From a virus, in IMG/VR virus record IMGVR_UViG_3300033141_003629, positions 1 to 64,000 of that record: a stretch of DNA of 64,000 nucleotides, one strand, 5' to 3'. Each line of letters begins with the position of its first letter. The first letter of the stretch is position 1. The notes beneath the pieces are model-generated. The model saw nothing but the letters and a program-made list of their open reading frames with translations, was not told the DNA's origin and did no database searches. The position numbers were made by a program, and so were the translations under genes. Below are positions 3,010 through 59,915 of the stretch, one piece after another.

Positions 3010-3207
3010 AGCAAAAAATGTGCCAATTATAAACGGAGTACCGACTGTATCTTTCTTTCGATTTAATAATTTTATAACTCATTTACTTTAAAGAACTTAT
3101 ATTTTTTCGCCAATAAATTTTAAAAAAATCAAAAATGATGAAAATATAGTCATAACGGATGATATTTTTAGTTTATTTAAGTTATTTTTTTCTTATTTTA
3201 AATCATT

Positions 3208-3580
3208 TTACATCATTTGGTGGATAATTTTAAAATCTACTTTATTTAACTTTATTAATATCAAAGAGTTATATAAGTTTTTAGAAACAAAAATCACTGT
3301 ATTTGGTAGATTTGGGTAGAATTAAGGTAGATTTCTTAGAAATTGAGCAAAATTTGGGTAGAATTAGTTCTACTATATTCAACTTATTATATATTAAGAA
3401 GTTATATAATTACTAATTCCTTAAATTTGGGTATTTGGGTAGTTTTTACCACAGGTAGAAAGATAGTCGTACCGAACGCCGCCCCCTACCCCCATCTTAG
3501 TTTAAGGACATTCTACTATTTTTATCATATTGGATTTAAAGAACTTAGAAGATTTTTTTTAAAAAAACCAAATGATGTAA
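3208..3580. repeat. 13-bp inverted repeat pair
   Basis: TTACATCATTTGG at 3208-3220 is the exact reverse complement of CCAAATGATGTAA at 3568-3580. A direct repeat of TTTAAAGAACTTA occurs near 3087 and 3535. The arms enclose the TTTGGGTA repeats. Short inverted repeats can arise by chance in AT-rich DNA, but these contain mixed bases and match at every position. Confidence 0.5.
3304..3461 (+). repeat. Iteron-like TTTGGGTA repeats
   Basis: TTTGGGTA occurs at 3311, 3353, 3426 and 3434. The first two extend to TTTGGGTAGAATTA (3311-3324 and 3353-3366). The related GGTAGA appears near 3305, 3326 and 3455. The copies lie in one strand orientation, as iterons for an initiator protein often do. A reading frame at 3343-3588 overlaps them but looks spurious. 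Confidence 0.5.
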
Positions 3581-3608
3581 GTATTTAATAGAGAAAAAGA
3601 TTTGACGA

Positions 3609-3673
3609 GGCGTTTTTGTTTTTTCGTTTAAAAACGCCGAGTAGTACTTTTTATGTATTATATAAAAAGTACT
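3609..3673. other. Two adjacent perfect stem-loops
   Basis: GGCGTTTTT (3609-3617) pairs with AAAAACGCC (3630-3638). Five bases on, AGTACTTTTTAT (3643-3654) pairs with ATAAAAAGTACT (3662-3673) around a seven-base loop. Neither is followed by a clean T run on either strand. They may be terminators of weak form, or structure at the start of the transcript that carries the RNA at 3806-4281. Confidence 0.5.
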
Positions 3674-4103
3674 AAAATCATATTGTTTATTATGTTCTTG
3701 ATTTGTTATTAATATATCAGTATCATATAAGAATAAAAACCTAAATGGCAAAAATATTTTAAAAAAAGTGTGGTAAAATCGTATATGTGCAGTATACTTA
3801 TTAGTGAGAGACAAAATCTGTTCTTTTACATAAATTTTAAGGTCAATCGCGGAAAACGCCATCCCGCGTAGGGAACTTTAAACAATAGTCGCCTTAACCT
3901 AGCTAAATACTATGGAGTCAGGCGAAAAGAAAAAAGATTTTGTTCCAGCAGATTGATTGAAAATTCATAAACAACTAGGTATTAATCAATGCTTCTATTT
4001 CTGTTAACAGAAATAGTTTGCTAAAAAGACGAAAGGTGAGTTATATCCGATTGTTCTAGAGCAGCGACATCTTCTATGAAAAGACTCTACCAAGTGAAAA
4101 ACT

Positions 4104-6873: not shown

Positions 6874-7428
6874 ATGGCTGATTACAGAGTCCCAGTTTTA
6901 GAAAATTTTGAATGGCAACAATCAGTTAAAAGTAGGTCAGCAACACCTCCAGGCAGTCCAGCAAAGGGTGATAGATACCTCGTTATTGCTACTGCAAGCG
7001 GAGATTGGTCTGGTCACGAAGGAGATATTGCATATTGTTCTAATGCAGTTGGTCCAGTTTGGTCTTTTGATTCTCCCACAGAGGGTATGATTTTATGGGT
7101 AGATGATGAAGACAAGTATTATCATTATAATGGAAGTACATGGAGCGAATATCTTGGGCAGCAAGGACCCACAGGTCCAACAGGCCCACAGGGTACTACT
7201 GGTCCAACAGGCCCTACAGGTCCACAGGGTGCAACCGGCAACACAGGTCCTCAGGGTCCAACAGGCGCACAAGGTGCTACTGGTCCAACTGGCCCTACAG
7301 GTCCACAGGGTGCAACCGGCAACACAGGTCCTCAGGGTCCAACCGGCCCTCAAGGACCAACTGGTCCAACTGGTCCAGTAAATCAAACGTATGATGCAGA
7401 TTACGAAGCAATTATAATTTCACTATAA
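6874..7428 (+). CDS. Tail fibre: DUF2793 head plus collagen-like Gly-X-Y stalk
   Basis: Residues 1-92 are a DUF2793-type domain ([21 protein letters not shown], then [21 protein letters not shown]), a family found in phage fibres and adaptors. Residues 95-170 are an unbroken collagen-like repeat made mostly of GPT, GPQ and GAT triplets, which should form a trimeric triple helix. The last 14 residues ([15 protein letters not shown]) form a short cap. SD is GGATGGAGG. The same head domain opens the gene at 8440, so the two are paralogues. GPT triplets are O-glycosylated in some bacterial collagen-like proteins, and a glycosyltransferase gene follows directly. Confidence 0.85.
7171..7380 (+). 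repeat. Collagen-coding repeat with 81-bp period
   Basis: About 53 bases starting at 7211 recur from 7292 with essentially no change, a period of 81 bases or nine Gly-X-Y triplets. The near-identity in DNA, not only in protein, shows recent in-frame duplication. It also makes this region prone to slippage and fibre-length change. Confidence 0.85.
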
Positions 7429-44688: not shown

Positions 44689-45330
44689 TTATCTTCTTTT
44701 GTGTTTTCTATTAAAGATTGTCTTGCCTTGTAAATGGTCTACTTCGTGTTGAATTACTACACTCTCAAAATCTTGATAACAGCTAGTTGTAGCTTCTAGT
44801 TTTTCGTTATGATTAACCAATGTAATAAATACCCACCTATCGGTGTCTACTCTTATACGAGGAAAACTTAAACATTCCTCTCCTTTAACTGTGAATTTTC
44901 TATCGTGTTCTACAATTTTTGGATTTATCAAAAGAAGTTCTTTTGGCCTTAATTTTTTATTTTTTTTATCAATATCAACCATTTTAATATAAGAAATTTG
45001 TTTGCAATAACCAATTTGATTTGCACTTAATCCCACGCCCCCAACATGTGCCAGAGTTTCTTTCAATTCTACAATAATTTGAGAAATATCTTCTCCTGGT
45101 TCTACTGGTTTGCAGGGAATCCTCAATTTATTTAAATTATGAATAATTTCTCTCACATTTGGGTTAGCTTTTTTTTCTTTCACTTCGTGCACAAAAGCTT
45201 TTGGGTTTTCTAGCATTTTCTTTAGTTGTTTTCTTTCAGAACAGGAGAGGTAGCCCCTTTCCATTCGTATTTTTTGTTCTTCAAGATAAACATTGGCTTC
45301 TATTTCTGTAGAAAAAGAAGTTTTAAGCAT
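44689..45330 (-). CDS. Peptide deformylase with N-terminal extension
   Basis: The three deformylase motifs are complete: GVGLSANQ (98-105), EECLS with metal ligand Cys153 (motif 2, usually EGCLS) and HEVDH (195-199). The first 60 residues are a helical extension with no known counterpart, while the catalytic part is normal for type I enzymes. Phage deformylases are known in marine T4-like phages, usually shorter than this. The enzyme would remove formyl from new proteins. It overlaps the RecA-like gene by eight bases and is followed at once by the S2P gene. Confidence 0.85.
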   Translation of the reverse strand: MLKTSFSTEIEANVYLEEQKIRMERGYLSCSERKQLKKMLENPKAFVHEVKEKKANPNVREIIHNLNKLRIPCKPVEPGEDISQIIVELKETLAHVGGVGLSANQIGYCKQISYIKMVDIDKKNKKLRPKELLLINPKIVEHDRKFTVKGEECLSFPRIRVDTDRWVFITLVNHNEKLEATTSCYQDFESVVIQHEVDHLQGKTIFNRKHKRR

Positions 45331-45982
45331 CTTCTCTCCTCACTGGAATAAAAAAGTTTGAAGAAACAAGTTTTGGAAATAAACGATTTTTTGTTACTTT
45401 GGTCTTAATATTATAACCTATAATTTTATTGCCTTTTTTTATTTGGGTTTTATTGGTTAATTTTATTTGTATATCTATGTTGGGAGTTATGGTTCTATAT
45501 TTTGCACTTACAGTTTTTCTCCGTTTTATATCTTTTCTAATTTGATTAGTTAAAAACACAGCACATTCTGATAGATGAACCGCACTTACGAATTCTGCCC
45601 AGCCTTTTTTTGATAAATCTAGGGCTGCGATTGAATCTATGAAAATAACATCAACTAGAGCAAGAAGGCTTTTATAATGCTGAATGAAGTGGTCTGGATT
45701 TATAATATAAAGAAGCTCTAAGTCTACTCCAATAAAACTACCATATGACGAGTCGAAGCAATAGTCTGCATTAACAAACATAACTGAATTTTGCTGTTGT
45801 AATTTTTTTATTAGTTCTAGACAAAGAGTAGTTTTTCCAACTCCAGGCCCCCCAAAAAATTCATATATTTTGCCTTTTGGGAGGGAAGCAGACCCAAAAA
45901 TTTGAAAGAAATTGCTTATATCTATCGAAGCAACATTTTTTGGGTATGGATAAAGTTGATTTTCTAGATTTTTTAAGTCCAT
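45323..45982 (-). CDS. RecA/RadB-like ATPase, short form (Sak4-like)
   Basis: The 219-residue protein has FFGGPGVGKTTLCLELI (Walker A near 43-51), DVIFIDSIAALDL (Walker B near 110) and a later FLTNQIRKDIKRRK (L2 or NQ sensor). This is the core of RecA-like recombinases without the C-terminal domain, as in Sak4 or RadB. A longer RecA-like gene lies at 58899. The small form may be a recombination mediator or single-strand annealing factor. Confidence 0.7.
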   Translation of the reverse strand: MDLKNLENQLYPYPKNVASIDISNFFQIFGSASLPKGKIYEFFGGPGVGKTTLCLELIKKLQQQNSVMFVNADYCFDSSYGSFIGVDLELLYIINPDHFIQHYKSLLALVDVIFIDSIAALDLSKKGWAEFVSAVHLSECAVFLTNQIRKDIKRRKTVSAKYRTITPNIDIQIKLTNKTQIKKGNKIIGYNIKTKVTKNRLFPKLVSSNFFIPVRREDA

Positions 45983-46140: not shown

Positions 46141-47565
46141 TTATAGTATTTTACTAATATTGTTTTCTCTTTTTACTTGTATCATTTTAACATCTTTAAT
46201 TTCATCTATATTCTGATAAATTAGAAAGACTTGATATGGCAAAGACTTTAAAATATCCAACAGCTTGTGAAGATTATTTAACTTTAATTCATTTAGTCCT
46301 TCATCTAATATGATAATCCCTCTTGTAATTCCATTTTGCAAAAGAATAGCCAATTTAAAAATGACGGACAAGAATATCCCCTGCCCACCAGATAGGTCAT
46401 TGTAATCAAGTTCTCTACCATTTTCTATGATAGTAAGAAACTGCTTATCTGCCGAAAAAATAACAGAAAGCCCAATTTCTTTTAGTAAATCATTTATAAT
46501 ATAGGTAAGATTATTTAACCATTTTTGAATATACCAACCAGAAAAATTATCTAGCACTTTAATGGCTGCTGTATATAACTCAACATCTGCCCTGGTATAT
46601 CTATAATCTACAAATTTTTTTGCTGCTTTTAGTTTTATTAATGCTGAAGAGATTTTTTCATAGCGAATATTTAGTACTTGTAAATTATCTTCAACATATG
46701 CTAAATCATTTAACAAAGTATTTAGGGATTTTTCATATTCTTTTTTTTCTACGGCTAATTTATCTATTTCTTCTTTTGATTTACCTTTTATAGCAGCTAT
46801 TTTTTTTGTTCCTAAAATTGTTCCACATGTAGGACATTTTTTTGTTTTTATCTGTTCGGCTACATCTTTATTATTTTTTATAATATAATCTATAGACCTT
46901 ATCTTGCCGGATAACTCGCTTTGTTTCTTTAAAAGGGTTTTTTGCTCTTCTTTAAACTTATTAATTTGATTAGAAAAGGTTTCTTTGGCGTTGATTAATA
47001 TATTTTCTCTTTTTTTTGATATGTAGAAAGTATATAATTTTTTATCTATATTATATGTCTCTCTTTCTAATTTCTTATTAAGTAGACTTTTTCTAATATC
47101 TGAAAAATCAGCATCAATAAAAGCCATCAATTCTTTTCTGAGTGTAACAATGCTTCTGGTATCTTTAGCATAGTCCAGGAGATTAATACTATTTTTATTA
47201 ATAAGGCGATACTTCTGAAAAAAAGTATAATCTCCAATTTTTTTATCTATCCATGCTTGCTTGAGTGTGGTAGTATTAAATTGAATTTCTATTTCACCTT
47301 CATAAATATGTAGTTCATTTGGAACGCTTCGTACAATCTTGAATTCGTCTGTTTCTAATTCAACTGTTGTGGATTTTTCTCCAAAAGAAATAAGTCTTTT
47401 CAATTTCGTTCCACTTGCGTTACCATACAGAGCAAAGATTATTGCTTTTAGTATGGTAGTTTTTCCAGAATAGTTTTCCCCTCTAATAATATTGGTCTTA
47501 CCAAAAGAAAGTTCTTCTTTTGGAAAAAGTTTAAAATTGTTGAGTTTTAGAGATTTTAATCGCAT
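46141..47565 (-). CDS. SbcC/Rad50/gp46-like recombination ATPase
   Basis: The 474-residue protein has Walker A GENYSGKTT (30-37), a coiled coil with zinc hook CPTC (244-247), the signature LSGGQ (391-395) and Walker B IIILDE (417-422). The coil is short, as in phage forms. With the SbcD-like nuclease (49605) it would form the end-processing complex. The start is unusual: a methyltransferase gene lies directly upstream, and a copy of the first 22 codons remains beyond it at 48754-48834. The present start uses a TGAGGA site formed at the methyltransferase stop. Confidence 0.85.
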   Translation of the reverse strand: MRLKSLKLNNFKLFPKEELSFGKTNIIRGENYSGKTTILKAIIFALYGNASGTKLKRLISFGEKSTTVELETDEFKIVRSVPNELHIYEGEIEIQFNTTTLKQAWIDKKIGDYTFFQKYRLINKNSINLLDYAKDTRSIVTLRKELMAFIDADFSDIRKSLLNKKLERETYNIDKKLYTFYISKKRENILINAKETFSNQINKFKEEQKTLLKKQSELSGKIRSIDYIIKNNKDVAEQIKTKKCPTCGTILGTKKIAAIKGKSKEEIDKLAVEKKEYEKSLNTLLNDLAYVEDNLQVLNIRYEKISSALIKLKAAKKFVDYRYTRADVELYTAAIKVLDNFSGWYIQKWLNNLTYIINDLLKEIGLSVIFSADKQFLTIIENGRELDYNDLSGGQGIFLSVIFKLAILLQNGITRGIIILDEGLNELKLNNLHKLLDILKSLPYQVFLIYQNIDEIKDVKMIQVKRENNISKIL

Positions 47566-48816
47566 CAGTCCTCATTTTTGTTTATAATTCTTTGTATTAT
47601 CAATTGATTTAAAAATATGAGCAATTACATCCACTGTCCATCCATTACCTAACATTTTATATCTTTGTGAATCACTAACTCCTAATGTATAGTTATCTGG
47701 AACAGTTTGTAATCTTTCACATTCTAAGGGAGTTAATTTTCTCCAAGTTAATTTGGATGTTGTAATTTTTGGTTCTCTATGTCCGCCTGTCATAGTGGTA
47801 AGTGTTGGACACTTACCATTTATATCGTATGTTCTTTTAATGATATCAAAACCTTTTAAATTTGCTATTCCTGTTTGTATAAGTAAATTATTATATTGCC
47901 TCATACTTGGGGTTTTCCCATTTTTCGCCTTAATTCCGCCTTTATTTACTCCATGAGGTAATTGAAAAATTAATTGTCTTCGTTTTTTATTAAAATATTG
48001 TTTTAGGTTTCCGCCTTTAAAATAATTACTATCAATGCAATAACTTTTATCTTTATCTACAATTTGATAAGATTTATTTTTATATATATTATCCCACTCT
48101 TGTTTACTTCCTACAGGACTATTTCTACCACTAACACGGACTATTTTGGATTTTTTTCTTAATAAATTAACCTCATAATTTGGTTGTTTTTCTAAAATAT
48201 CTTTTAAATAAATTTTTTTATCTTTGGGTTGTTTTATATTTGGAATGTTAGTCCAATATAATCTTTTTCTGTTTTGAGCTGAAACTAATGCACTATTAAT
48301 TAAAATGGGTTCTACCCCCATTAATTCTGAAATTTTATTTTGAAATTCTTTTTTCATTTTTACGTTTTCTAAAAGAAAATATTTAGGTTTAGTTTCTTTT
48401 AATAATCTAACAAATTCAAAAAATAATTTACTTCTTGGGTCATTAAAATTTAATTGTTTCCCTGCAAAACTAAATCCTTGACATGGAGAACCGCCCATAA
48501 GAATATCAATTTTAGGCAAATCTTTTCCATTTATTTTTGTAATATCTCCTAATTGAATAGTATTTGGATAATTTGATTGTGTTACTTTGATAGCATATTT
48601 ATCAATTTCTGATGCAAAATATTTATCAACCTTAATACCTGCACGTTCTAATGCAATTTGCCCACAACTCATTCCATCAAATAAACTTAGTACATTCATT
48701 TTAATATCTCTCTATTTTTAACTTTTTTTCCTTTTAGATATTTTTAGTAGTATCTATTGTGATTTTTCTCCAAAAGAAAGTTCTTCTTTTGGAAAAAGTT
48801 TAAAATTGTTGAGTTT
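47501..48816. repeat. 47-bp direct duplication flanking the methyltransferase gene
   Basis: The 47 bases at 47501-47547 and 48770-48816 are identical. They encode residues 7-22 of the SbcC-like protein in both places. The copies face the same way and enclose the cytosine methyltransferase gene. A 19-base string (gatttttctccaaaagaaa) is also shared by 47372-47390 and 48761-48779, so the outer copy looks like a junction of two parts of the gene. Confidence 0.9.
47572..48699 (-). CDS. C5-cytosine DNA methyltransferase
   Basis: The 375-residue protein has the ordered motifs of this class: LFDGMSCG (motif I, 6-13), GGSPCQGFSFAG with catalytic Cys73 (motif IV), ENV (111-113, motif VI), QNRKRLYW (142-149, motif VIII) and LGNGWTVDV (motif X). 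The target-recognition part lies about residues 180-310. No restriction enzyme is next to it. It would protect phage DNA from host restriction or mark it. It lies exactly between a remnant of the SbcC 5' end and the intact gene, which shows it was inserted there. Confidence 0.9.
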   Translation of the reverse strand: MNVLSLFDGMSCGQIALERAGIKVDKYFASEIDKYAIKVTQSNYPNTIQLGDITKINGKDLPKIDILMGGSPCQGFSFAGKQLNFNDPRSKLFFEFVRLLKETKPKYFLLENVKMKKEFQNKISELMGVEPILINSALVSAQNRKRLYWTNIPNIKQPKDKKIYLKDILEKQPNYEVNLLRKKSKIVRVSGRNSPVGSKQEWDNIYKNKSYQIVDKDKSYCIDSNYFKGGNLKQYFNKKRRQLIFQLPHGVNKGGIKAKNGKTPSMRQYNNLLIQTGIANLKGFDIIKRTYDINGKCPTLTTMTGGHREPKITTSKLTWRKLTPLECERLQTVPDNYTLGVSDSQRYKMLGNGWTVDVIAHIFKSIDNTKNYKQK

Positions 48817-48834
48817 AAGTGATTTAATATTCAT
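48754..48834 (-). pseudogene. Remnant of the original SbcC-like 5' end
   Basis: This 26-codon frame reads MNIKSLKLNNFKLFPKEELS, then FGEKSQ and a TAG stop. The intact gene reads MRLKSLKLNNFKLFPKEELS, then FGKTN. The ATG overlaps the stop of the upstream TM microgene by one base, which looks like the ancestral, coupled start of the gene. After residue 22 the remnant switches to sequence like codons 61-66 of the intact gene. Confidence 0.8.
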
Positions 48835-48929
48835 TAATTAGATAAACCTATATAATCCATTCTAGTACAGAATTCAAAAAATAATAAAAGTAACCATACG
48901 ATTATTAAGAGTATAATTAGGGTTTTCAT
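48834..48929 (-). CDS. Single-span membrane microprotein (31 aa)
   Basis: MKTLIILLIIVWLLLLFFEF is a clear hydrophobic helix, followed by a short polar tail CTRMDYIGLSN. The ATG overlaps the SprT-like stop (ATGA), and the stop overlaps the ATG of the SbcC remnant. Its strongly hydrophobic nature, unlike random AT-rich sequence between two soluble proteins, supports translation. The function is unknown. Confidence 0.5.
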   Translation of the reverse strand: MKTLIILLIIVWLLLLFFEFCTRMDYIGLSN

Positions 48930-49504
48930 TGTTCTGTAAACTCTTTTTTGCATATTTGACATATCGCCTTTAAATCAACAGCACATCGAACAGTGGTGCA
49001 TTCACAGCGATACTTTTTCATTTTAGTAGGTCCAATAAGAGAGATATGTTTTTTTCTATAAAGCTCAAACACTTTATAATTTATTTTTAAATCCTTTAAA
49101 ATAATTTGAAGTCGCTTAGTTGGTTTGGTAAACGCCCACCCATGTCTTCCTTCTTTTTCGCAGTTTAAACCGTAATTTTCTGCTTTTATCTTGAAATTTT
49201 TATTGTGATATCCAGAGTTGCTGCAGTCTTTTATTTTTTCACAATGATTAGCATAGTGTGCCATTTCATGTATAAGTGTTTCTATTGGGCGTCGTTTTAA
49301 TTCTTCTGCACAAATGTTTATTTCTCCAACTTCATTTTTTCCTCGTTTCCAACGATTAGCCCCAAACCAGCCGAGAATAGTTTTGTTTCGCCCTTTTGTT
49401 TGAACAGTTATAATTGGCCTAGGATACTTAAATTTAAATTTCTTATTCACAGCATCATAGATTCGTTCAAGTTCTTTAATTATAGGAATGATTGAGTTAT
49501 TCAT
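48926..49504 (-). CDS. SprT-like zinc metalloprotease
   Basis: The 192-residue protein has LIHEMAHYANH (HEMAH at 79-83) and, about 15 residues later, GYHNKNFKIKAENYGL, the third-ligand region. The C-terminus has a zinc ribbon (CECTTVRCAV, CQICKK). This is the SprT/Spartan plan, proteins that in cells remove DNA-crosslinked proteins. Its place among recombination genes fits such a role. Confidence 0.75.
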   Translation of the reverse strand: MNNSIIPIIKELERIYDAVNKKFKFKYPRPIITVQTKGRNKTILGWFGANRWKRGKNEVGEINICAEELKRRPIETLIHEMAHYANHCEKIKDCSNSGYHNKNFKIKAENYGLNCEKEGRHGWAFTKPTKRLQIILKDLKINYKVFELYRKKHISLIGPTKMKKYRCECTTVRCAVDLKAICQICKKEFTEQ

Positions 49505-49509
49505 AATTT

Positions 49510-49608
49510 TTAATATGGCTCGTATTCATAAATTTCGCCAACACCAAACATAAATAGAGATTTACAGTTCGGCATGGATGAGACTAATTGTTCAACTTTG
49601 AATTTCAT
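49510..49608 (-). CDS. Microprotein (32 aa)
   Basis: The frame begins MKFKVEQLVSSMPNCKSLFM and ends YEYEPY. It overlaps the SbcD stop by ATGA and ends five bases before the SprT ATG. It has mixed helix and strand character. Coupling on both sides and normal amino-acid composition suggest it is made, but it may act only as a link. Confidence 0.45.
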   Translation of the reverse strand: MKFKVEQLVSSMPNCKSLFMFGVGEIYEYEPY

Positions 49609-50582
49609 TTTATTTCATTTAAAATAATGCTGGAAATTTCGGCATTTATTTCTTTCTCTTTACTATATGCTTCAAAAGATTCTTGTAGATTTTTAGTATC
49701 TTTTTCTTCTCCAAAAAGAGGGGTAGAATTAAATAATTCAAATCTATTTTCTCTAACAAACTTTATAAATTTTTGCTTATATTTATCTTCTACATCTAAG
49801 AAGTTATGATAATTTTTGAAATCATGGATAAGCACTTTGACCTTTGTTTTTGGCTTTAATTTGTCTAAATACTGACAAAGGGCCTCAAAATTGCTTGAAT
49901 TTTGAGCAAAAAAGCCCTTTTTAGGCACTTTTTTTTGTGCTTGGTCCCAGGAGTCTAATTTATTTTCTTTCTTTTTACATAAGTCTAACTGCACCATAGG
50001 GATAGGAGATTTTAATGGAATAAACGTATGCTTTTCATTTACTCCTTTATAGTCGGTGATTAAAATTATTCCCTTTGTATCGTTGGCTTCATCAAAAGAA
50101 ACAAAACGACAGCTACCTATTCCAGTAATATGCTCTTTCTGATAAAAAGAATGAATATGCCCCAAATAAACATGCTTATATTTTTTTAGGTCTTTAAGAG
50201 AAAGCTTGGCATCATAATTTTTTGGACTTTCTTTTATAGAGAAATGTCCACAGAATAAATGTTCTCCATCTTCATAAGATTTAACAATGCGAATAGAATT
50301 ATTTAACATCCCCAGGTGATTGAGTATTGATTCTTCATGGGTTGTAGATTCGTGACTATCTGCAGCAATTAATACTATAGGCTTACCACAATCGACGATG
50401 AACTGAGAAAATAAGTCAAGTTCGGCACTTCCAGGCTTATAACTATCGAATGTATCTCCCAAATTAATTATTTTATTTATTTTATATTCAATACAAAGAT
50501 TAACAATCTCTCTTAAAATTTCTCTACATTCTTCAAGAGATTCTTTAGTTATATGAAGGTCTGAGAATAAAAGAATATTCAT
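49605..50582 (-). CDS. SbcD/Mre11/gp47-like nuclease subunit
   Basis: The 325-residue protein shows LLFSDLHITKES (Asp8, His10), INLGDTFDSYKPGS (GD), AADSHES where GNHD is usual, FCGHFSI and LGHIHSFY. The metal ligands thus seem complete, though the Asn of the third motif is replaced by Asp or Ser. The length fits phage gp47 proteins. It acts with the SbcC-like ATPase at DNA ends. The C-terminal half is helical and charged. Confidence 0.8.
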   Translation of the reverse strand: MNILLFSDLHITKESLEECREILREIVNLCIEYKINKIINLGDTFDSYKPGSAELDLFSQFIVDCGKPIVLIAADSHESTTHEESILNHLGMLNNSIRIVKSYEDGEHLFCGHFSIKESPKNYDAKLSLKDLKKYKHVYLGHIHSFYQKEHITGIGSCRFVSFDEANDTKGIILITDYKGVNEKHTFIPLKSPIPMVQLDLCKKKENKLDSWDQAQKKVPKKGFFAQNSSNFEALCQYLDKLKPKTKVKVLIHDFKNYHNFLDVEDKYKQKFIKFVRENRFELFNSTPLFGEEKDTKNLQESFEAYSKEKEINAEISSIILNEIK

Positions 50583-58185: not shown

Positions 58186-58906
58186 TTTTAAGGTCTTTTA
58201 AAAATATTTGCTCATATATTAGTGTTACATATTTATGATTTACGTCTAAGATTTTTGCAACTTCCTCAATAGTCAATTTCTTTTCGTGATATGCTTTTAG
58301 TAGTGGTTTATTGTATAGGGTAGTCCCCCTAAAAAATGAAGCTTTTTTTATATCATATCCATCTAACTTCATTATCTGTCTGCTGAGTTGCAAACAATAT
58401 GGACATTTATAATAAATTTCTCCGGCATGAGTGTTATAATATTCTTTTGCTTTTGTTTTTAATTCATTCCATACAGAAGAAAAGGAGTCTGTTTCTTTTT
58501 CCTTTAATAGACCCAAAACCCGTTCGTCTTCAGCAATAGAAGAGTCCAAATCGAGCATTTTTTGTGCAATGCCTAGTGGTATGGCTCCAACTTGCTCACC
58601 CTTTGCATTTGTTTTGGTATATTCATCTTCCATAAATTTCTGCATTCGTTGTCTTAGCATTTTTTTATAAACCATTCCTATAAGTTTACTTTTCTCTGCA
58701 TAAGACTCAAATAAATTTTGCGATAAATATTCTTTATATATTTCTACTGCTTGTTTGATTTCACTGCTTATCAAGCCAGAAAATGCTTTTTTTAATTCTT
58801 TCTCTTCTAACTTTTCTTCTGCTAGTTTAACAAGCTGTTCTTCTGTAAGATTCTTATTCTGCTTTAAACCCCGTAGTCTCTTAATTAATTTTTCTTTCTT
58901 AGTCAT
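58175..58906 (-). CDS. Terminase small subunit-like protein
   Basis: The 243-residue protein is helical. It has a Cys pair IYYKCPYCLQLSRQ near 166 and a C-terminal helix-turn-helix LTIEEVAKILDVNHKYVTLI. Overlap with the large terminase gene by 11 bases and the DNA-binding motif are the reasons for the call. The family is not recognised directly. Recognition of the packaging site is the expected role. Confidence 0.6.
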   Translation of the reverse strand: MTKKEKLIKRLRGLKQNKNLTEEQLVKLAEEKLEEKELKKAFSGLISSEIKQAVEIYKEYLSQNLFESYAEKSKLIGMVYKKMLRQRMQKFMEDEYTKTNAKGEQVGAIPLGIAQKMLDLDSSIAEDERVLGLLKEKETDSFSSVWNELKTKAKEYYNTHAGEIYYKCPYCLQLSRQIMKLDGYDIKKASFFRGTTLYNKPLLKAYHEKKLTIEEVAKILDVNHKYVTLIYEQIFLKDLKNDS

Positions 58907-59915
58907 TTTCTATCCCTCTTTCAAAGTAAAATGGGATGTGAATTTCCATGCCCTCTATACAATTCTCTATTTGGCTTTTATCAACACGGACAACCATATC
59001 AAAACCAATCAATATTTTCTCCATTTCTGCTTTGCCATCTTCAGTAACTGCCCCTGTTGGTCTTTTTTCTTTTGGGGCGTCTACTTTTTGACCCCTCCTA
59101 AATTTAAGGATGAGCCTACTAGAATGTAGGAGGGCGTTTCCACCTGTAAGTGTCTCTAATTTTATAAATCCACCCAAGTCCATTCTGCTCTGCCCAATAA
59201 ATACAACCGCACACTTTGCTTCTGCAACAAATGCAGTTCCCATTTCAAAAAATTGAGCAAGCTTCCTGGCTCTTAGTGCCATTGTATCGTCGCTAACAGA
59301 TTTTTCCTTATCTGCTTTGCCTTTATATAACTCTCCTTTTGGTGCTAGACCATGCAAAGAATCAAATACAATTAAATCTACTACTTTTTCTCTGCATAAT
59401 TTTAAAATTACATCTAGCCCATCCTCTAATTGCTCTACATCTATTACTACAAGAGAATCGGTATCTACTTTTCTTTTTGCCGCATAAACTGGGTCATAGC
59501 TTCTCTCTCCATTTATATAAACACACTGCTTTCCTATTTTTTGGGCATTAGCAATCAAATCCAGTATAGCGGTTGTTTTGCCTGTTCCTTTAGACCCCCA
59601 AATTGTTGTAAATGTTCCTTCAAGAATTCCTCCACCGATTAATTTATCTATATGCTTGTTTCCAAATGGAATTCTATTTCTAATTTCTACGTCGCTAGCA
59701 AACTTTATAGCTCCTTTGCCTATTTTTTTAGTCAAATCTCGCAAAACTGAATTAAGTTTATTTCTTTTTTTTGTTTGTTCAGAAGAAAAAATCTTTTCTA
59801 CATTTAACAACTTTTTTAATTTTGGAATTTCTTTAATAGGAATTTTATTAAATTCCTCAGAAGACATTGTTGGGGGATTCTTTTTCTTATTTTTACTTCC
59901 TTTTGGTCTGCCCAT
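58899..59915 (-). CDS. RecA/UvsX-like recombinase
   Basis: The 338-residue protein has a basic N-terminus (MGRPKGSKNKKKN) and a RecA core: IDKLIGGGILEGTFTTIWGS, GSKGTGKTT (107-115, Walker A), DLIVFDSLHGLAP (Walker B), VVFIGQSRMDLGG (sensor) and TGGNALLHSSRLILKFRRG. The IGGGI..G start is typical of recombinases. It probably drives strand exchange in phage replication. The size fits UvsX-type proteins, and a shorter paralogue lies at 45323. Confidence 0.8.
   Translation of the reverse strand: MGRPKGSKNKKKNPPTMSSEEFNKIPIKEIPKLKKLLNVEKIFSSEQTKKRNKLNSVLRDLTKKIGKGAIKFASDVEIRNRIPFGNKHIDKLIGGGILEGTFTTIWGSKGTGKTTAILDLIANAQKIGKQCVYINGERSYDPVYAAKRKVDTDSLVVIDVEQLEDGLDVILKLCREKVVDLIVFDSLHGLAPKGELYKGKADKEKSVSDDTMALRARKLAQFFEMGTAFVAEAKCAVVFIGQSRMDLGGFIKLETLTGGNALLHSSRLILKFRRGQKVDAPKEKRPTGAVTEDGKAEMEKILIGFDMVVRVDKSQIENCIEGMEIHIPFYFERGIEND

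Follow-up and report, generated by a model that had tools for sequence, protein, structure and literature searches.

A probable insertion of a solitary cytosine methyltransferase gene into the 5' end of a phage sbcC/gp46-like gene, with duplication of the target

The gp47-gp46 interval and its repeat pair

The window, that is, the whole 64-kb stretch of DNA analysed here, comes from an uncultured virus record of 69.6 kb that carries terminase-like (called by eye, without a Pfam match), family B polymerase, RecA/UvsX-like, gp47 (SbcD)-like and gp46 (SbcC)-like genes. On the minus strand, the site between gp47 and gp46 is occupied by a methyltransferase gene and a pair of direct repeats; read 5' to 3', the order is SprT-like gene, 31-aa ORF, outer copy of the sbcC start, 54 bp, methyltransferase, the hexanucleotide GGACTG and gp46 (Table 1). 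The gp46 product is a recombination ATPase of the SbcC/Rad50/T4 gp46 type, with a split ABC ATPase head, a Walker A motif (GENYSGKT) near the N-terminus and an LSGGQ signature near the C-terminus. A gp47/SbcD-like phosphoesterase is encoded upstream of it here and in all the syntenic relatives described below. The Walker A loop (residues 29-37, GENYSGKTT) is 9-13 residues shorter than in all aligned relatives (for example, GINLDNLTSSGNGSGKTT in L084).

Table 1. Features of the gp47-gp46 region, in 5' to 3' order of the minus strand (positions in the window)
Feature	Position	Strand	Remarks
SbcD/gp47-like metallophosphoesterase gene	49605..50582	-	conserved upstream partner of gp46
SprT-like gene	48926..49504	-	PF10263; within variable gp47-gp46 interval
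31-aa upstream ORF (MKTLIILLIIVWLLLLFFEFCTRMDYIGLSN, then stop)	48834..48929	-	own TAA overlaps outer ATG (TAATG); own ATG overlaps SprT-like stop (ATGA)
Outer remnant of sbcC 5' end	48754..48834	-	26-codon ORF (MNIKSLKLNNFKLFPKEELSFGEKSQ, then stop); apparent 120-nt in-frame deletion
Outer copy of 47-bp perfect direct repeat	48770..48816	-	
54 bp from remnant stop to methyltransferase ATG	48700..48753	-	AGAGAG is Shine-Dalgarno-like
C5-cytosine DNA methyltransferase gene, 375 aa	47572..48699	-	PF00145, TIGR00675, M.HhaI
Intact SbcC/Rad50/gp46-like ATPase gene, 474 aa (MRLKSLKLNNFKLF...)	46141..47565	-	PF02463, PF13476; aligned with four relatives; 5' end apparently rebuilt
Inner copy of 47-bp perfect direct repeat	47501..47547	-	sbcC codons 7-22
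Internal sbcC 19-mer (TTTCTTTTGGAGAAAAATC)	47372..47390	-	first 10 bases are the end of the 47-mer; marks the deletion joint of the outer copy

The methyltransferase gene encodes a full-length C5-cytosine enzyme of the HhaI type (PF00145, 3.7e-57 over residues 1-366; TIGR00675 above cut-off), with its catalytic motifs present and intact (PCQ at 72, ENV at 111, QNRKR at 142 and GN at 351). Its GC content at third codon positions is 0.128 compared to 0.229 for 12 other genes (z = -4.7), and it therefore looks like a compositionally foreign, late arrival. No restriction endonuclease partner adjoins it, its neighbours being gp46, the 31-aa ORF and the SprT-like gene; thus, the cognate endonuclease that would make this a restriction-modification system is not alongside. 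Promoter scans yielded about as many sites as in shuffles. Kin of this gene are common on other virus contigs, and the DNA matches listed in cultured phages were restricted to the methyltransferase gene.

The two copies of the 47-bp repeat, 1269 nt apart, are identical at 47 of 47 positions (54 of 56 when extended) and enclose the intact methyltransferase gene. No other non-tandem direct repeat in the window reaches 30 bp, and the 47-mer occurs only at these two places in the whole 69.6-kb record. A repeat of such length cannot be due to chance. (Elsewhere, at 1342-1890, 31-bp units are repeated in tandem in two blocks.) The sequence-only reading had proposed that an identical 47-bp duplication flanks the methyltransferase gene and encodes the SbcC N-terminus on both sides, that the outer copy keeps its ATG in the coupled TAATG position and soon ends at TAG, and that the inner copy starts the intact gene. 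All of this is found: the outer ATG, at 48834, overlaps the TAA of the 31-aa ORF, the TAG stands at 48754-48756, and the inner copy opens the uninterrupted 474-aa frame.

The copies are less alike at their very start. Over the first 18 nt, they differ at seven positions, five in codons 2-3 and two synonymous, and no further difference occurs among the first 65 nt (p about 5e-5 under a uniform distribution of changes). The outer copy begins MNI, and the inner copy MRL; codons 4-8 (K-S-L-K-L) are kept in both, with the synonymous changes at S and L. The duplicated segment may end near codon 3, the new start coming from the insert or from selection, or the first codons of the inner copy may stem from a divergent donor.

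Make-up of the outer remnant

Past the 47-mer, the outer copy does not go on to sbcC codon 23 but to codons 63-67 (EKS...). A 10-mer, TTTCTTTTGG, occurs in sbcC at nt 56 and again at nt 176 in the same frame, and the outer copy reads as sbcC from which 120 nt (nt 66-185) are missing, in frame, between these two 10-bp repeats. The 19-base word of Table 1 is indeed present in both places (48761-48779 in the remnant). By unanchored local alignment, the tail of the remnant is indistinguishable from shuffles of this AT-rich DNA, and the word was judged on that basis to be a chance match; this judgement was overturned by a test anchored on the shared TTTCTTTTGG, which gave a score of 22, whereas none of 2000 shuffles exceeded 16. 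The anchored score makes the 120-nt in-frame deletion a well supported reading of the remnant. Aligned with sbcC lacking these 120 nt, the outer copy shows 3 substitutions and 2 single-nucleotide gaps over 77 columns, one nucleotide missing from the tail being what shifts the frame to the TAG.

Since the outer copy corresponds to an sbcC 5' end with a deletion between 10-bp repeats, the duplicate would formerly have reached about codon 67. The sequence-only reading had noticed the switch to an internal SbcC sequence at the 19-base word and took it as a sign of microhomology repair. The jump itself stands, on the anchored score, but it is more likely to be a later short-repeat deletion in a dispensable copy than a trace of the insertion. 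In the 54 bp that follow the remnant, similarity to sbcC is not detectable, and these presumably are insert DNA.

The record is one metagenomic contig, and the 47-bp repeat is shorter than a typical read, as would suit an artefact in which two strain variants, such as an empty-site phage and a methyltransferase-bearing molecule, were stitched together at the repeat. This is improbable, since reads of 150 nt normally resolve 47-bp repeats and both copies have distinct, biologically sensible flanks (a coupled start, an in-frame deletion, a new Shine-Dalgarno sequence and start codon). A chimera would, moreover, still need a second molecule in which an sbcC fragment is joined to the methyltransferase.

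The same site in relatives

Five independent syntenic relatives from IMG/VR (L084, L085, L090, L091 and L103), with 38-47% gp46 identity, and one more distant virus, L003, were available for comparison. L003 was reached via its RecA-like protein, and the five others, with near-duplicates of some, via alignment-based scans; single-protein scans of IMG/VR with gp46, gp47 or terminase returned no relatives. GTDB genomes scanned with the gp46 alignment gave nothing, and in cultured phages gp46 had two weak matches only. No close relative (above 50% gp46 identity) was found in IMG/VR, the cultured phages or the GTDB genomes searched.

L084, L085, L090 and L091 carry gp47, small genes, gp46 and peptide deformylase in the same order; in L103, gp46 follows a split gp47. 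The content of the gp47-gp46 interval varies, from an RNA-ligase-like gene in L090 and several small ORFs in L091 to the SprT-like and methyltransferase genes here. The gp47 of L103 lies in two ORFs of 214 and 128 aa (L103:2546-4119), separated by a 177-aa zinc-ribbon and PD-(D/E)XK-like ORF (3174-3707; PDDEXK_5 at 5e-5, below cut-off) that is apparently a homing-type nuclease; direct-repeat flanks were looked for around this insertion and were not found.

In six of six relatives (the five syntenic ones and L003), gp46 is single and continuous after gp47, the point that the sequence-only reading had proposed to check in phages that lack the methyltransferase. No PF00145 methyltransferase was detected in the relatives' records searched, with the window's own record as positive control, nor in the L103 locus. 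The opposite outcome, namely methyltransferase-free relatives that already hold both copies, was seen in none of the five of these six that were tested, the syntenic relatives being only 38-47% identical to this phage in gp46: a repeat of the gp46 start was absent from the 3 kb upstream, where the longest shared word is 9-13 nt compared to 47 here. This also bears on the idea that the sbcC 5' end was tandemly doubled first and that the methyltransferase entered between the copies later. Such a history would formally leave the same final structure, but it needs two events instead of one and predicts a doubled 5' end of which these five relatives have no trace, and we hold it to be very improbable.

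The relatives also tell the two copies apart. The gp46 start overlaps the upstream stop as TAATG in L084, L091 and L003, as ATGA in L103, and by longer overlaps in L090 and L085; this coupling is preserved by the outer copy and lost in the inner one. Likewise, codons 1-3 read MxI in L084, L090, L091 and L103, like the outer MNI and unlike the inner MRL. The view that the original start survives in the outer copy and that the inner copy rebuilds the gene is thus supported, and with it the proposal, made from the letters of the window, that the methyltransferase gene was inserted at the start of sbcC and the 5' end of the target remade: the site is empty in the five syntenic relatives and in L003.

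Origin of the arrangement

The arrangement was probably produced by a single illegitimate insertion that placed an AT-rich gene for a solitary C5-cytosine methyltransferase within the 5' end of sbcC/gp46; a long target duplication accompanied the event, and decay of the remnant followed. A direct duplication flanks the methyltransferase (the 47-bp repeat, with about 76 nt of the remnant alignable), and relatives without the gene have a single uninterrupted target, although this empty site is visible only across a large distance (at most about 47% gp46 identity). The original length of the duplication is read through a later deletion.

We infer a copying mechanism, an order of steps and a role against restriction, as follows. 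About 200 bp of target (roughly sbcC nt 6 to 202) would have been doubled, with one copy on each side of the insert, the likely route being recombination-dependent replication: a copying strand would quit gp46 near codon 67, copy the methyltransferase from foreign DNA and then rejoin gp46 upstream of its exit point. The downstream copy would become the working gp46, starting 6 nt past the methyltransferase stop with the new codons MRL and an AGGA ribosome site of its own. The upstream copy, now dispensable, would have lost 120 nt between the two 10-bp repeats as well as a single nucleotide, which brought a stop into frame; what is left is a remnant of 26 codons, still coupled to the upstream microgene. 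By methylating the DNA of the phage itself, the enzyme presumably guards it from host restriction.

The chief rival is a homology-driven exchange of the Campbell-like or homeologous kind, with a related donor phage in which the methyltransferase lay next to an sbcC start reading MRLKS... A crossover in the 47-bp core would make the outer copy from recipient-left and donor-right sequences, and the inner copy from donor-left and recipient-right ones. It explains the differing first codons well: the copies differ on the 5' side (7 of 18 nt) and on the 3' side (the deletion joint) around an identical core, as such a crossover would leave them, and the K-S-L-K-L of codons 4-8 is kept with synonymous changes. 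The perfect 47 bp beside these differences could indeed be a recombination joint with a divergent donor, which tells against a single insertion, and the phage has UvsX/RecA-like and gp46/47-like recombination genes of its own. Nevertheless, we consider this exchange unlikely. None of 80 methyltransferase loci has an sbcC homologue, and no relative has the methyltransferase, so that no donor joining the two genes was found. If the donor had diverged, differences should appear in the core as well, and the perfection of the core would be a coincidence. Outside codons 2-3, the copies have diverged little and rather evenly (3 substitutions in about 76 nt), in keeping with decay that followed a single duplication. 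The mosaic 5' end was considered as proof of a Campbell-type crossover and found not to be decisive, five of the seven differences falling in codons 2-3, outside the clear duplication.

The sequence-only reading had also likened the event to the behaviour of mobile, intein-like and homing elements, and this likeness did not hold. A self-mobile element (homing-endonuclease cassette, intron or transposon) recoding the target's 5' end by design would leave an intact target with a newly supplied start, as elements inserting at gene 5' ends do, and homing-type nucleases apparently act on this operon in a relative, as the split gp47 of L103 indicates. But the methyltransferase is the sole ORF of the insert. 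From its ORFs and an Rfam search, the insert holds no homing or other nuclease, intein, integrase, transposase, intron or other self-splicing RNA, and no terminal inverted repeat extends beyond 13 columns. A search for other methyltransferase insertions with target duplication came back empty as well: a flanking direct repeat longer than 13 nt was present at 0 of 75 related methyltransferase loci with usable flanks (shuffled flanks reach 12). A self-mobile element is thus largely refuted already and scarcely credible as the cause. Since these 75 loci lack flanking duplications, the target duplication appears to belong to this event and not to be a habit of the gene family.

Insertion with long target duplication is known for restriction-modification genes of Helicobacter pylori (Nobusato et al. 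2000, Gene 259:99-108, as cited in PMC1643837 and PMC3031569). As those citations describe it, a methylation gene is likewise bounded on both sides by a long direct target duplication, with an empty site in relatives without the gene. The cases so described are restriction-modification genes in bacterial chromosomes, recognized by comparing close strains, whereas here the gene is a solitary methyltransferase in a phage, the coding 5' end is still functional and the comparators are about 40% identical. In haloviruses of the HF1 group, methyltransferases are gained and lost at one neighbourhood among related viruses (PMC7230728), a patchy presence comparable to that seen here; unlike here, a nearby integrase/attP is suggested to play a role, and target duplication is not in evidence in the parts of that account concerned with this neighbourhood. 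Nearer to hand, the gp47-gp46 operon of L103, from the same phage group, has likewise taken up a foreign ORF, in a free-standing insertion of the homing endonuclease type; the ORF there is nuclease-like and leaves gp47 in two pieces without duplication, while here there is no nuclease and the target has been remade. Elements that integrate at the 5' ends of genes, such as SXT in prfC, supply a new start from which the target gene continues, as the methyltransferase insert does; they carry an integrase and short attachment cores, and this insert has neither. No report of a target-duplicating methyltransferase insertion in a phage was found in the open-access literature. The locus is best explained by an isolated insertion event with long target duplication, as known from bacterial restriction-modification genes, and would be a tidy example of that kind and not a new category. 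It would extend this kind of insertion to a solitary phage methyltransferase. Both joints of one gene acquisition are preserved, in the original coupled start, the rebuilt target and a leftover copy that is shrinking, whereas records of this sort are lost as a rule. The locus also suggests that duplicating the start of its target lets a phage accept a gene in an important operon while the function of the operon is kept.

When the two copies are joined within the 47-mer, the result is an uninterrupted 474-aa gp46 that begins MNIKSLK in the TAATG position, and the event would therefore be reversible in principle by homologous recombination. One may go further and picture the methyltransferase as a reversible cassette that the gp46/47 and UvsX recombination functions would excise, giving back the coupled gp46 exactly, a doubtful proposition at present. 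If true, methylation against restriction could come and go in phage populations.

Other parts of these genomes drew attention in passing. This phage has two different RecA-family genes (45323-45982 and 58899-59915), of which the shorter (219 aa) immediately follows gp46, a position at which it was not seen in the relatives' loci. A virion-type protein with collagen-like GPTGPQ repeats is encoded at 6874-7428. In L003, visual inspection of the translation suggests two inteins within a 1518-aa primase/helicase-like ORF (L003:803-5359). The family B DNA polymerase of this phage (53335-56202) bears a C-terminal HD domain (residues about 777-953) that shares 59% identity with a free-standing HD ORF of L003; in L084 and L085, the polymerase stops short of this domain, so that the HD fusion appears to be lineage-specific.
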